From the NCBI GenBank assembly GCA_902799685.1, contig CADCBO010000017.1, positions 1 to 63,544 on the forward strand: DNA of 63,544 bases, in the 5' to 3' direction. Position 1 is the first letter of the stretch. The number at the start of each line of letters is the position of its first letter. Below the pieces are notes generated by a model, which was given only the letters and a program-made list of their open reading frames with translations, had not been told where the DNA came from and searched no databases. The stretch is from an uncultured Bacteroidales bacterium (GTDB taxonomy: Bacteria; Bacteroidota; Bacteroidia; Bacteroidales; Bacteroidaceae). The position numbers and the translations under genes are program-made. Of the stretch, positions 49,047 to 53,293 are shown in pieces.

Positions 49047-49094
49047 ATGAATAGAACAGCAACATATCACCATCACCATACCTGCAGATCCTAA
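49047..49094 (+). CDS. hisL: Histidine operon leader peptide
   Basis: A 15-codon reading frame: MNRTATYHHHHTCRS followed by TAA. Four consecutive His codons (CAC CAT CAC CAT) are the control codons. When charged tRNA-His is scarce, a ribosome would stall here and shift the RNA fold downstream. Its position between the promoter and an attenuator-type hairpin, ahead of hisG, is the classic layout. Confidence 0.85.
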   Translation: MNRTATYHHHHTCRS

Positions 49095-49095
49095 T

Positions 49096-49159
49096 CGGTA
49101 GGCTATGAATGGCGTATATTTATACAAGAGGCTTGCCGATACACGGTGAGCCTCTTTTT
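49096..49159 (+). promoter_or_regulatory. his attenuator: antiterminator and terminator
   Basis: Terminator: AAGAGGCT (49126-49133) pairs with AGCCTCTT (49149-49156), extended inside by CCG/CGG, followed by a T run (49155-49159). Antiterminator: CGGTAGGC (49096-49103) pairs over 8 bp (two G-U) with GCTTGCCG (49131-49138), which overlaps the terminator stem. The two folds are exclusive. A weaker 5' hairpin can form between TACC (49079-49082) and GGTA (49097-49100). Ribosome stalling at the His codons would release the antiterminator arm and allow hisG transcription. Confidence 0.8.
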
Positions 49160-49185: not shown

Positions 49186-50037
49186 ATGTTGAGAATAGCA
49201 GTACAATCCAAAGGGCGCCTCTATGACGAGACAATGGCGCTGCTCCAGGAGTCAGGCATCAGCCTAGGAGTATCCAAGAGAACTCTTCTGGTCCAGGCCG
49301 GAAACTTCCCCGTCGAGGTCCTGTTCCTGCGTGACGATGACATACCCCAGTCTGTGGCCGGCGGTGTGGCCGATGTAGGCATTGTAGGTGAAAACGAGTT
49401 TGTGGAGCGTGCCGAAAAGGCCGATGTTATCAAGCGTCTGGGATTCAGCCGTTGCCGCCTGTCGCTTGCTATACCCAAAGCTGTTGAATATCCTGGCGTT
49501 GAGTGGTTCAACGGCAAGAAGATAGCCACCTCCTACCCCGGAATCCTCAAAGCATTTCTCAAGCAGAAAGGCATAAAGGCTGAGACTCACGTAATTACAG
49601 GCTCAGTAGAAATCGCCCCCGGAATAGGTCTGGCCGATGCGATATTTGACATTGTAAGTTCAGGCTCCACGCTGGTAAGCAACAACCTTCGCGAAGTTGA
49701 CGTTGTGATGCAATCCGAAGCACTTCTTATTGGCAACCCCAAAATGGATTCGGAAAAGAAAGCCATACTTGAGGAGCTGCTGTTCCGCTTTGATGCAGTC
49801 AAGGCCGCCCAGGGCAAGAAATACATAATGATGAACGTACCTGATGACCGTATGAGTGAGGTCCTGGCCGAGCTCCCCGGCATCAAGAGCCCCACAGTGA
49901 TGCCACTGGCAACCAAGGGCTGGAGTTCAGTTCACACTGTACTGGATGAGAAACGTTTCTGGGAAATCATAGGCAAGCTCAAGGCTGCCGGTGCTGAAGG
50001 CATATTAGTTCTTCCCATTGAAAAGATGATTCTCTAA
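49186..50037 (+). CDS. hisG: ATP phosphoribosyltransferase, long form
   Basis: First step of histidine synthesis: ATP + PRPP to phosphoribosyl-ATP. The 283-residue protein is the long, HisZ-independent type with a C-terminal regulatory domain (about 205-283). Visible motifs: LRIAVQSKGRLYDETMALL, RDDDIPQSVAGGVADVGIVGENEF and the PRPP-binding DAIFDIVSSGSTLVSNNL. Feedback inhibition by histidine is expected for the long form. It is directly behind the attenuator and followed by the first 106-bp repeat. Confidence 0.96.
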   Translation: MLRIAVQSKGRLYDETMALLQESGISLGVSKRTLLVQAGNFPVEVLFLRDDDIPQSVAGGVADVGIVGENEFVERAEKADVIKRLGFSRCRLSLAIPKAVEYPGVEWFNGKKIATSYPGILKAFLKQKGIKAETHVITGSVEIAPGIGLADAIFDIVSSGSTLVSNNLREVDVVMQSEALLIGNPKMDSEKKAILEELLFRFDAVKAAQGKKYIMMNVPDDRMSEVLAELPGIKSPTVMPLATKGWSSVHTVLDEKRFWEIIGKLKAAGAEGILVLPIEKMIL

Positions 50038-50038
50038 T

Positions 50039-50144
50039 AATTGAGAATTGAAAATTGAGAATTCTTGGAGCAGCGAGAGGAGAGAAAGTTTACTTTCTAT
50101 CCCGAGTCGCGACAAGAATCATGGAACGAAGTGACATAATTGAG
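50039..50144. repeat. 106-bp his-operon repeat, copy 1
   Basis: One base differs from copy 2 at 51396-51501 (position 29 bp past the ATTCTTGG motif: G versus T in the AGAAAGTTTAC region). It starts and ends with AATTGAG and contains ATTCTTG/CAAGAAT arms plus a small AGAAAG/CTTTCT hairpin. It provides the TTG start of hisD at its right end. Confidence 0.92.
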
Positions 50145-51408
50145 CAAGGCTGAGTGGAAGCAGTTGTTGAGCCGTCCCGCGCTGAGCGTGGAGGGTCTCT
50201 ACGAGCGTGTCCAGGCTGTGCTTGACACTGTGCGCAAAGGCGGTGACCAAGCACTAAAGGATTATGAGCTGCAATTTGACAAGGTACAGCTTCACTCACT
50301 GGCAGTAAGTCAGGCCGAGCTTGATGAAGCCGCAGCACTTGTACCGTTGGAATTGCGTGATGCAATTGACCGCGCCGCCGTGAACATCCGCAAGTTCCAC
50401 ACCGCACAGCTACCATCACTGAGCAAGGTTGAGACTACTCCGGGCGTAACCTGCTGGCAGAAAGCAGTACCCATCACAAAGGTAGGTCTTTACATCCCCG
50501 GCGGCACAGCTCCTCTATTCTCGACCGTCCTGATGCTTGCCATCCCCGCCCGTACCGCAGGCTGCACGGAGATTGTTCTATGCACTCCTCCCGGACGTGA
50601 CGGAAAGGTCAACCCCGCCATACTCTACGCCGCACAAGTGGCTGGCGTAAACCGCTTCTTCAAACTGGGCGGATCACAGGCAATTGCCGCCTTGGCATAC
50701 GGCACCGAGAGTGTACCCAAGGTATCCAAGATATTCGGCCCCGGAAACCCATACGTTACCGCTGCCAAGCAGATAGTTTCACTCAAGGATGTGGCAATAG
50801 ATATGCCCGCCGGCCCGTCGGAAGTTGAGGTTATAGCCGATGCACAGGCCAATCCCGCTTTCGTGGCAGCCGATTTGCTTTCACAGGCCGAGCACGGACG
50901 CGACAGCCAGGTGCTGCTGGTTACCACATCTGCAGACCTCATTAACAAGGTTCAGGCCGAGGTTGACCGCCAGGTTGCCCTGCTTCCCCGCAACGAGATT
51001 GCAGAGGCTGCACTCGGCAACAGTCGTATGCTTCTGCTCAAGAACGATGATGAGATCATTGAGATGACCAATGAGTATGCTCCAGAGCACCTGATTATCC
51101 AGACTCAGAACGCCTCTGAACTTGCCGAGCGCGTAGTCAACGCAGGCAGCGTGTTCATCGGCCCATGGTCACCAGAGAGTGCAGGCGATTATGCATCTGG
51201 TACCAACCACACTCTGCCCACAAGCGGCTATGCCAAGGCGTATTCAGGCGTAAACATTGACAGTTTCATGCGCAAGATAACATTCCAGGAGCTCTCACGC
51301 GAGGGTCTCAAAGCACTTGGTCCCGTAATCGAGACTATGGCTGCCGGCGAGTATCTGGATGCACACAAGAACGCAGTAAGCATCCGCCTTGTGGAAATTG
51401 AGAATTGA
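50140..51408 (+). CDS. hisD: Histidinol dehydrogenase
   Basis: Last two steps of histidine synthesis (histidinol to histidine, NAD-dependent). Conserved parts include GLYIPGGTAPLFSTVLMLAIPA, GGSQAIAALAYGTESVPKV, DMPAGPSEV and QAEHGRDSQ with catalytic Glu/His region. No ATG is available: a TAA stop immediately precedes TTG at 50140, so TTG is the start. The first codons lie in the repeat; relatives have about seven more N-terminal residues before SKxEW, apparently lost. The last residues IEN and the TGA stop come from copy 2 of the repeat. Confidence 0.93.
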   Translation: MSKAEWKQLLSRPALSVEGLYERVQAVLDTVRKGGDQALKDYELQFDKVQLHSLAVSQAELDEAAALVPLELRDAIDRAAVNIRKFHTAQLPSLSKVETTPGVTCWQKAVPITKVGLYIPGGTAPLFSTVLMLAIPARTAGCTEIVLCTPPGRDGKVNPAILYAAQVAGVNRFFKLGGSQAIAALAYGTESVPKVSKIFGPGNPYVTAAKQIVSLKDVAIDMPAGPSEVEVIADAQANPAFVAADLLSQAEHGRDSQVLLVTTSADLINKVQAEVDRQVALLPRNEIAEAALGNSRMLLLKNDDEIIEMTNEYAPEHLIIQTQNASELAERVVNAGSVFIGPWSPESAGDYASGTNHTLPTSGYAKAYSGVNIDSFMRKITFQELSREGLKALGPVIETMAAGEYLDAHKNAVSIRLVEIEN

Positions 51409-51501
51409 AAATTGAGAATTCTTGGAGCAGCGAGAGGAGAGAAATTTTACTTTCTATCCCGAGTCGCGACAAGAATCATGGAACGAAGTGACATAATTGA
51501 G
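51396..51501. repeat. 106-bp his-operon repeat, copy 2
   Basis: Same length and orientation as copy 1 with 105/106 identity. It supplies the hisD stop codon (51406-51408) and ends 2 bp before the hisC ATG. A 9-codon ATG frame in it (MERSDIIEI) ends in TGA that overlaps the hisC ATG (ATGA). Confidence 0.92.
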
Positions 51502-51503
51502 AT

Positions 51504-52538
51504 ATGAAAAAGCTTGAAGAGCTGGTTAGACCCAATATATGGTCGTTGAGTCCGTACACATCGGCCCGTGACGAATATCAGGGCAAGGATGCCAAGGTGT
51601 TCCTGGATGCCAATGAGAACCCCTACAACGACCCGGTGAACCGTTACCCTGACCCGTTGCAGCGCGAGCTCAAGCAGCGCATATCGGTAATCAAGGGCGT
51701 TCCTGCAGACAGCATTTTCTTTGGCAACGGCAGCGATGAGGCCATTGACCTGATGTACCGCATATTCTGCCGCCCGGGTATAGACAATGCCGTAGCCATC
51801 GAGCCCACCTACGGAATGTACGGAGTGTGTGCCGATATCAACGACGTGGAGTACCGCCGTGTGCTTATGGATGAGAACTTCCAGCCCGATGCTGACAAAC
51901 TGCTTGCAGCCGTTGACGCCAACACAAAGCTGATATTCTTCTGTTCACCCAACAACCCCAGCGGCAACAACATTGACCGCAGTGTCATTGACAAAGTACT
52001 TGACAGTTTTGACGGTATTGTAATTGTTGATGAGGCCTACATTGACTTTGCAGGCGTACCCTCATATCTCAGGCAGTTGGAGTCCCGCCCCAATCTGATC
52101 GTACTACAGACCTTCTCCAAAGCATGGGGAATGGCCGGAATCCGTTTAGGAATGGCGTTCGCGCAGCCGGAGATAATAGGTATAATGAACAAAGTCAAAT
52201 ACCCATATAACATAAACATGCTCACGCAGCAGCGCGCCATAGAAGAGGTGATGCAGCATGACCGGGTAAAGAATTGGGTTGATTCCATCCTGAAAGAGCG
52301 CACCCGCCTGATGGATGAATTCAGAAAACTGAATTGCACCATTAAGGTCTATCCGTCCGATGCCAATTTCTTCCTGGCACGCGTAAAGGATGCCACCGCC
52401 ACCTACAACTACCTTGTTGACTGTGGAATCATAGTCCGCAACCGCAGCAAGATAGCTCTGTGCGGCAACAGCCTACGCGTAACGATAGGCACTGCCCCTG
52501 AAAACAATGCCCTTCTTGACGCACTGAAGAAAGTGTAA
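51504..52538 (+). CDS. hisC: Histidinol-phosphate aminotransferase
   Basis: Class II aminotransferase, 344 residues, full length. Active-site residues: N151 (SPNNPSG), D177 and Y179 (VDEAYIDF), K206 ([14 protein letters not shown]). N-terminus [18 protein letters not shown] and [10 protein letters not shown] are HisC signatures. The ATG is 2 bp after the repeat. It is followed by a toxin-antitoxin pair and then hisB. Confidence 0.96.
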
Positions 52539-52611: not shown

Positions 52612-52911
52612 ATGAGAATTGTATCACATAGGCGATTGGTTGAGTTCTATAGTTCAGAAGGGCACAAAGACTCACAAGCGGCATTGGAAAGATGGTATGA
52701 TATCGCCGAAAATGCACAGTGGCATAATCTGTCAGAGATAAAAGTAGATTTCCCATCAACAGATTATGTAGGCAATCAGCATTACGTGTTCAATATCAAA
52801 GGCAACAAATACCGTCTTGTGGTAGTTGTCAAATTTACTATCAGCCACATTTTCATACGTTTTGTGGGAACACATGACGAATATGAAAAAATCGACGTTT
52901 CAACAATATAA
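52612..52911 (+). CDS. higB: HigB-type mRNA interferase toxin
   Basis: A 99-residue RelE-fold toxin of the HigB family: MRIVSHRRLVEFYSSEGH, KDSQAALERWYDIAENAQWHN, VFNIKGNKYRLVVVVKFTISHIFIRFVGTHDEYE. Such toxins cut mRNA at the ribosome unless bound by the antitoxin. It precedes the antitoxin gene as in other HigBA pairs, has its own promoter and is inserted between hisC and hisB. Confidence 0.9.
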   Translation: MRIVSHRRLVEFYSSEGHKDSQAALERWYDIAENAQWHNLSEIKVDFPSTDYVGNQHYVFNIKGNKYRLVVVVKFTISHIFIRFVGTHDEYEKIDVSTI

Positions 52912-52930
52912 TATAAAAAGGATAAGTCAT

Positions 52931-53293
52931 ATGAAGAATATCACCAAAGAACAATATGAATTCGCGCAAGCCAGAATAGAGGAACTTCTTCCGCTTGTTG
53001 ACGACAACACTCCAGCCAATGACCGTAATGCCGTAGAACTTACTATGGTATCGGATGTTGTAATAGAATATGAGAAAGAGCACTATCCTATAAGTAAGCC
53101 CAGTATATCACAACTCATCCAGACCTCATTGGATGAAAAGAACATGAGCCAGAAACAGCTTGCCACAGAGATAGGTGTAAGCCCTTCACGTATAAGTGAT
53201 TATGTATCCGGCCGCGCAGAACCTACGCTCAAGATAGCCCGTATGCTATGTTCTATACTCAACATTCCTCCTTCTGTAATGTTAGGTTTCTAA
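52931..53293 (+). CDS. higA: HigA-type antitoxin, XRE/HTH
   Basis: A 120-residue protein: N-terminal half (about 1-70) is a toxin-binding region (TKEQYEFAQARIEELLPLVDD), C-terminal half is an XRE helix-turn-helix (MSQKQLATEIGVSPSRISDYVSGRAEPTLKIARML). It should neutralise HigB and repress the shared promoter. Start at 52931 is preferred over 52826, which lies inside higB. Confidence 0.9.
   Translation: MKNITKEQYEFAQARIEELLPLVDDNTPANDRNAVELTMVSDVVIEYEKEHYPISKPSISQLIQTSLDEKNMSQKQLATEIGVSPSRISDYVSGRAEPTLKIARMLCSILNIPPSVMLGF

Follow-up and report, generated by a model that had tools for sequence, protein, structure and literature searches.

We analyzed a stretch of 63,544 nucleotides, hereafter the window, from an uncultured Bacteroidales bacterium (GCA_902799685.1, contig CADCBO010000017.1, positions 1-63,544, forward strand). 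The assembly is a draft of 37 contigs with a completeness of 86%, and it is probably of metagenome origin. In the window, two copies of a 106-nt repeat lie at the seams between hisG, hisD and hisC (Table 1). As the original prediction had described, the copies are on the same strand, differ only at position 50 (G or T), and are both bounded by AATTGAG. It was also right about how the repeats reach into the genes. There is no ATG for hisD, and a TTG codon (50140-50142) at the end of copy 1 immediately follows an in-frame TAA (50137-50139). Copy 2 supplies the final codons of hisD (ATT GAG AAT) and its TGA stop (51406-51408). Both copies contain a short frame that begins with ATG (the mini-frame), and the stop of this frame in copy 2 overlaps the start of hisC, which is two bases 3' of the repeat.

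Table 1. Features of the hisG-hisD-hisC region, with positions in the window
Feature	Position	Strand	Remarks
hisG	49186..50037	+	family model
Repeat copy 1	50039..50144	+	hisG/hisD spacer; 106 nt
Heptamer array, copy 1	50039..50063	+	AATTGAG AATTGAA AATTGAG AATT
Hairpin H1, copy 1	50061..50119	+	outer stem ATTCTTG/CAAGAAT; conserved GGAGCAGCGAGAG/CCGAGTCGCGAC, including two tandem G.A steps; apical stem variable
Hairpin H2, copy 1	50120..50137	+	CATGGAACGAAGTGACAT, loop CGAAG; ATG of the mini-frame inside
Mini-frame, copy 1	50121..50153	+	overlaps the hisD start
Terminal AATTGAG, copy 1	50138..50144	+	holds TTG, the sole possible hisD start
hisD	50140..51408	+	family model; starts with the TTG of copy 1 and ends within copy 2
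Repeat copy 2	51396..51501	+	hisD/hisC seam; 105/106 identity with copy 1
Heptamer array, copy 2	51396..51420	+	hisD stop inside
Hairpin H1, copy 2	51418..51476	+	
Hairpin H2, copy 2	51477..51494	+	
Mini-frame, copy 2	51478..51507	+	MERSDIIEI*; stop overlaps the hisC ATG
Terminal AATTGAG, copy 2	51495..51501	+	
hisC	51504..52538	+	family model

Upstream of hisG, there is a likely his attenuator (49047-49094 and 49126-49156). By eye, it has a frame, MNRTATYHHHHTCRS, with four His codons in a row, which is followed by a terminator-like hairpin of 13 pairs and a run of T. It had no match in Rfam at the gathering threshold. Neither copy of the repeat contains a terminator-like site (GC hairpin and T-run), which together with the likely leader fits a single transcript across both copies. 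We would expect transcription to continue through both copies, and hisD and hisC might be translated by re-initiation or independently. Re-initiation at overlapping stop and start codons has been described (in the available part of PMC6728339). Two weak promoter-like matches touch the repeats: a sense match where copy 1 begins, and an antisense match in copy 2. In total, there are 5 promoter-like matches, which is no excess over shuffled sequences (4.1), and the consensus used does not cover promoters of Bacteroidota. Between hisC and hisB (52612-53293), the window also encodes a HigB-type toxin (PF09907) and an HTH antitoxin. We found no similar protein by tblastn (1e-4) in 80 hisD loci, not all of which reach hisB.

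The original prediction held that the usual six or seven N-terminal residues of HisD seem to be missing, and relatives agree. We considered the 30 closest hisD loci (L011-L040) and read their junctions by eye; all except L033 could be scored. Because an ATG is present about seven codons upstream of the window protein's beginning in 29 of these 30 loci, about seven residues were truly lost. A short HisD without the repeat was seen in 0 of the 29 scored loci. There is no other hisD match in the host genome, and the products of the 19 closest loci (L011-L029) have 90-94% identity to this one, so hisD is very probably in use. In the best of the solved HisD structures, the alignment begins at residue 3, 4 or 5 of the window's protein (it begins later in the others), so the shortened end should be compatible with a working enzyme.

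The relatives also suggest how the two junctions were filled. The core of the repeat (its two-hairpin part, see below) is absent from all 29 scored hisG-hisD junctions. By eye, hisG and hisD overlap at ATGA in 12 of these, are separated by a palindrome of the GGGGTC or GGGGAC type in 9 (L012-L014, L016-L017, L025, and L028-L030), have only an AATTGA array in 2, and have other spacers in 6. Copy 1 probably entered at the hisG stop and removed about 21-23 nt, including the hisD ATG, which would leave the TTG in the end of the repeat. The hisG gene ends with TAA and then one T, which would fit a former TAATG overlap. The flanks of copy 2 (...CTTGTGGA and ATATGAAAAAG) fit an ATGA overlap as in several relatives, so the insertion between hisD and hisC looks clean; copy 2 probably entered between ...GTGGA(A) and the ATATGA of hisC. 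In two loci (L033 and L142), we found no in-frame stop that separates the hisG match from hisD, and hisD lies in an open frame of 674 amino acids. This could be a hisG-hisD fusion or a frame error.

The repeat is not confined to the his operon: a search of relatives, as the original prediction had proposed, found further copies as well as hisG-hisD junctions that are free of it. In the host genome, the 106-mer has 54 matches. Nine of these, with lengths of 79-106 nt and identities of 80-100%, span the core; the other 45 cover just the first 25 nt or so, which is the array. A covariance model, which we built from 38 copies, finds 10-11 copies in this genome. The 84-nt core is present in 19 of the 37 genomes from the genus, including the host, with at most 19 matches per genome. 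In our sample of the family, the covariance model has matches in 142 of 251 genomes and in 20 of 30 genera (E ≤ 0.01, host included); 17 candidates were scored per genome, so the copy numbers are lower bounds. In the larger samples, the filters for scoring were stricter. The model has matches in 24 of 247 genomes from the order (E ≤ 0.001, host included), and in the sample of the phylum it found the host genome and 0 of 246 others (E ≤ 0.001). By eye, sub-families appear to be uniform within a genome, unlike between genomes. Overall, the repeat belongs to a real, widespread, and strongly structured family that has inserted twice in this his operon.

The unit of the family is a core of about 84 nt, with two hairpins (H1 and H2), that is embedded in an array with a 7-nt period (AATTGAR in the host). 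The outer stem of H1 varies pairwise (ATTCTTG/CAAGAAT, ATTTTTG/CAAAAAT, ACTTTTG/CAAAAGT, or ATTATTG/CAATAAT). The zone GGAGCAGYGAGAG / CCGAGTCGCGAC of H1 is conserved. It contains two tandem G.A/A.G steps, which are not standard-paired in 38 of 38 aligned sequences, and a simple expression finds both strands of this G.A motif in 142 of 159 copies. The apical stem of H1 is variable; in 122 of 159 copies, the loop at its apex reads CTTG, TTTA, or CTCG. H2 is small, often with a CGAAG loop, and is less regular than H1 (65-71% vs. 77-79% of cells pair).

This two-hairpin unit is maintained by selection on base pairing. Among 38 sequences from the genus, both partners have changed in 20 of 36 pairs; there are 90 such cells, vs. 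26.5 in shuffles, and 0 of 500 shuffles reached the observed value. (A first alignment, of H1 alone, was rejected as its gaps were badly placed.) Outside the genus, for 93 matches in 76 loci, both sides have changed in 26 of 35 pairs, with 424 such cells vs. 108, in an alignment that was fitted to the model. One copy on its own folds better than most shuffled sequences (z of about -2.1 as DNA and about -2.5 as RNA), and the folding and covariation fit RNA and single-stranded DNA alike. The region of the window has no match in Rfam at the gathering threshold. With relaxed thresholds, for this region and 17 loci, the matches were limited to tRNA and RNase P in other parts of the loci, along with sub-threshold matches.

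In the host genome, a three-unit AATTGAR motif has 70 matches on each strand (counting overlaps), vs. 0 for a backward control. Runs of at least 10 matches at a lag of 7 nt occur in 26 of 154 flanks from the genus and, in other genera, in 19 of 163, compared with none of the shuffles; around the core, a lag of 14 is next, and the remaining lags have 0 to 2. The unit of the array varies (by eye): it is AATTGAR here and AAATCGT/AAATAGT, AAACTGT, AAAATGA, AATAATG, or ATATTGA elsewhere. In the host's array, TGA occurs in each of the three frames. Arrays also exist without a core, and many of these form inverted pairs that enclose terminator-like hairpins. In ten loci (L220-L222, L224, L228, L232, and L235-L238), an AATTGAR array and an inverted array surround terminator-like modules and ACGCAGGT/TGCGT modules. 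Such pairs probably represent composite 3'-end repeats.

We collapsed the 77 copies from the genus to 50 independent sites, and we determined their contexts from the higher-ranked matches with a simple ORF caller that considers only ATG starts. Between co-directional genes, 26 sites are sense and 7 are antisense (p = 0.0013). Of the other sites, 5 are inside called ORFs, 1 is at an edge, and 11 were classed as converging, a class that wrongly includes both window copies because the caller chose an antisense ORF (hisD and hisC are co-directional). At 33 of the 50 sites, the end of a sense gene lies no more than 60 nt upstream, and an antisense gene ends nearby on the opposite side at 12 of 50. 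The stop codon of the upstream gene lies within an AATTGA unit in 14 of 51 cases and inside H1 in another 6, or 20 of 51 together. So in the window's genus, the element is a short intergenic palindrome close to the 3' ends of genes, as expected for REPs. In other genera (82 copies at 70 sites), the bias is weaker, with 27 sense and 13 antisense (p = 0.04), and preferences for position and orientation vary between genera. Some sub-families are found in the leader of the gene that follows. In some genera, a sense start codon is 20-54 nt downstream of the end of H1 (e.g., in L302-L304, L317-L318, and L320-L322). In L249 (1501-1680) and L342, the element lies just upstream of tRNA genes, and a promoter-like sequence is found farther upstream, so this placement should be in the leader of the tRNA. 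In L250, an antisense copy is within a called open frame and appears, by eye, to be located at the N-terminus of a lipoprotein-like gene.

Besides the his operon, we compared a second junction, upstream of a gene for which 21 of the 37 genomes from the genus have matches. The 18 closest loci differ in their upstream gene, of which there are two. Of these loci, 4 are filled, 1 has array units only, 12 are empty, and 1 has a different upstream region. One filled locus has two tandem cores, and another has two cores and a core-deleted unit. In one pair of filled and empty genomes (G019 and G035), the core directly follows TATGA, without a duplication (by eye). At 13 of the 50 sites in the genus, there is more than one copy or species at the same junction. 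With empty relatives and many copies elsewhere, the original idea of a small element that inserted between operon genes has held up.

On this evidence, we think that both repeats represent a structured, non-coding family of Bacteroidales that is dispersed and mobile and resembles MITEs or REPs. We give this reading a probability of roughly 75%. Empty and filled relatives indicate that the element enters intergenic seams, including those where stop and start codons are close or overlap. Since the array has TGA in three frames and the 3' end of the unit can have a usable start, insertion may cost the neighboring genes their terminal codons only; this is seen for stops and would be expected for starts as well. 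The element is probably either non-autonomous, with its folded single strand being mobilized in trans, or spread by recombination between units of the array.

Alternatively, the element could be mainly a cis-acting element of the mRNA, for stability, processing, or translation, with its spread being secondary. This is the strongest competing explanation, but we consider it clearly less probable. It would account for the bias towards the sense orientation in the genus, the strong covariation, and the recurring apical loops, as well as for the copies of H1 shortly ahead of sense starts in some genera and for those copies that are retained at a shared junction across several species. On the other hand, we noticed no common function among the neighboring genes (which we did not classify systematically), the preference for the sense strand is weak in other genera, and some antisense copies are within called ORFs. 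Also, the uniform sub-families within genomes resemble recent spread.

The original prediction suggested a more specific role: ribosomes from the upstream gene would translate the mini-frame (MERSDIIE) before starting again on the gene that follows, and the element would be retained for that. The overlaps of the mini-frames with the starts of hisC and hisD are what this predicts, and re-coupling of translation is possible for these two genes. For a general function, it finds no support: an ATG directly follows H1 in 65 of 77 copies from the genus, but in only 21 of 82 copies elsewhere. Even in the genus, among 36 copies with a called sense gene downstream, the mini-frame stops near the gene's start in 10 cases and runs in frame into the gene in 6 (16 of 36, some perhaps by chance in such short spacers), while it ends earlier in 19 and later in 1. 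(These 36 do not include the window's copies, whose right-hand neighbors were misjudged by the ATG-only caller.) The peptide follows from the sequence of H2, and the mini-frame is probably a by-product of it. It is the hairpin rather than the mini-frame that is conserved, and we doubt that re-coupling explains why the element is retained.

If the element is mobile, a Y1 transposase (TnpA or RAYT) is a candidate for moving it, as for a satellite of REP type or IS200/IS605 type. Its imperfect hairpin, its intergenic and orientation-specific placement at the 3' ends of genes, and the presence of Y1 transposases in 23 of the 37 genomes from the genus would fit, and RAYTs with atypical flanking structures have been described in Bacteroidetes (in the available part of PMC6006769). 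However, the core is absent from 31 Y1 loci from the genus and from 13 from other genera (0 of 44; about 1.5 kb on each side where the contig allows). For 27 of the 31 loci from the genus, we could read the gene, and most of these are flanked by GGGGAC or GGGGTC palindromes, as is mostly the case for the RAYT-like genes in L009, L010, and L151-L178. Also, a Y1 match is lacking from 6 of 13 element-rich genomes outside the genus, the majority of which are incomplete assemblies. Given the absence of the core from the 44 loci and the other palindromes beside RAYTs of the genus, we rejected RAYTs as the mobilizer, and a satellite of a Y1 transposase seems improbable. The RAYTs' palindromes resemble the spacers in the his operons of relatives, which suggests that the his junctions accept several kinds of repeats.

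We also looked for duplications of the target site. Flanking repeats of at least 7 nt occur for 37 of 155 copies, vs. 9.8 upon random re-pairing of the flanks, largely because arrays are shared on both sides. The variable base agrees between the left and right array units in 29 of 45 cases (p = 0.12). A duplication of ATGA was considered for L116, L205, and L119; L119 was dropped, as its right-hand ATGA is likely the native start, judging by eye from an empty relative. In a genome from another family of the order (G474; loci L348, L352, and L354), the unit ends with ...TAATG or ...AAATG. In some copies, the following gene has its start codon right at this end, and units are in tandem in L348 and L354. 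We considered the 3' AATG in this genome as a duplication as well, but it accompanies most copies whatever the target, so it is probably part of the unit. More speculatively, the element might represent a new class, a folded single-stranded hairpin (DNA or RNA) that targets stop/start junctions and brings its own stop and start signals, which would let operons survive the insertion. Its repeated entry and loss would then build the genome-specific heptamer arrays of Bacteroidales and account for their origin; we think this is unlikely.

Finally, although a 37-contig draft that is 86% complete and probably from a metagenome is prone to errors at repeats, an assembly artefact is very improbable: the order hisG-hisD-hisC is as in relatives, both junctions are within one contig, the lost start of hisD is unique sequence that the collapse of a repeat would not remove, and the repeat is found at other junctions in independent genomes.

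How does a mobile, structured family compare to known repeats? MITEs and ERIC-like repeats are short, non-coding, and dispersed between genes, and so is this element; unlike a MITE of a DDE transposon, it lacks terminal inverted repeats, as the 106-nt unit ends with direct copies of AATTGAG and the ends of the core are not inverted matches (by eye). STRRs of cyanobacteria are intergenic arrays of heptamers. Direct repeats of 7 nt in intergenic DNA, as in STRRs or LSSRs, are found in the surrounding array and not in the core. Arrays of TAACTGA from Beggiatoaceae and a few Bacteroidetes are intergenic, have stops in all frames, and lie near start codons or overlap the ends of upstream ORFs (available part of PMC4679880). 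The array in the host shares the 7-nt unit, the intergenic location, the stops in three frames, and the placement near starts or across the ends of upstream ORFs; but unlike TAACTGA arrays or STRRs, it encloses a structured element, and its unit changes from genome to genome.

As far as the available parts of PMC3733652 and PMC6006769 describe them, REPs are small imperfect palindromes, intergenic and mainly 3' of genes, that can provide the stop codon of the upstream ORF. The element shares the location at gene ends and the supply of stops with REPs and BIMEs (the GTAG and CGTC families in PMC3733652, and the Bacteroidetes RAYT subclasses in PMC6006769). It differs from them in its longer two-hairpin unit, its setting in heptamer arrays, its conserved internal G.A motif, and its absence from the flanks of Y1 genes in the 44 loci. 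BrickBuilt MITEs of Porphyromonas are named in the available part of PMC5771137, and the likeness to these is by description, not by sequence. The candidate structured RNAs of Bacteroidetes, in the available part of PMC2864571, share conserved covarying hairpins and a restriction to Bacteroidales. The lack of Rfam matches sets the element apart from these; Bacteroides-2 and GUCCY-hairpin, which have no Rfam entry, are outside this comparison. Bacteroides and Porphyromonas are absent from the main text of a survey of stem-loops (PMC2267715). We found no earlier description of the hairpin element in Rfam or in the literature, which was covered largely without subscription papers, and searches of the literature with the strings of the array and core gave unrelated papers only. 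In other words, small dispersed hairpin repeats at the seams of genes are known, and we did not find a description of a two-hairpin family that is set in arrays and has no RAYT partner.

If our reading is correct, then most of the sampled genera in one family of bacteria harbor a structured repeat that is unnamed in the sources we searched. Because the element can alter the ends of biosynthesis genes, automatic calls of start codons near it would often be wrong. Its filled and empty junctions would be natural pairs for testing how operons tolerate insertions. And heptamer arrays would be tied to a specific structured element.
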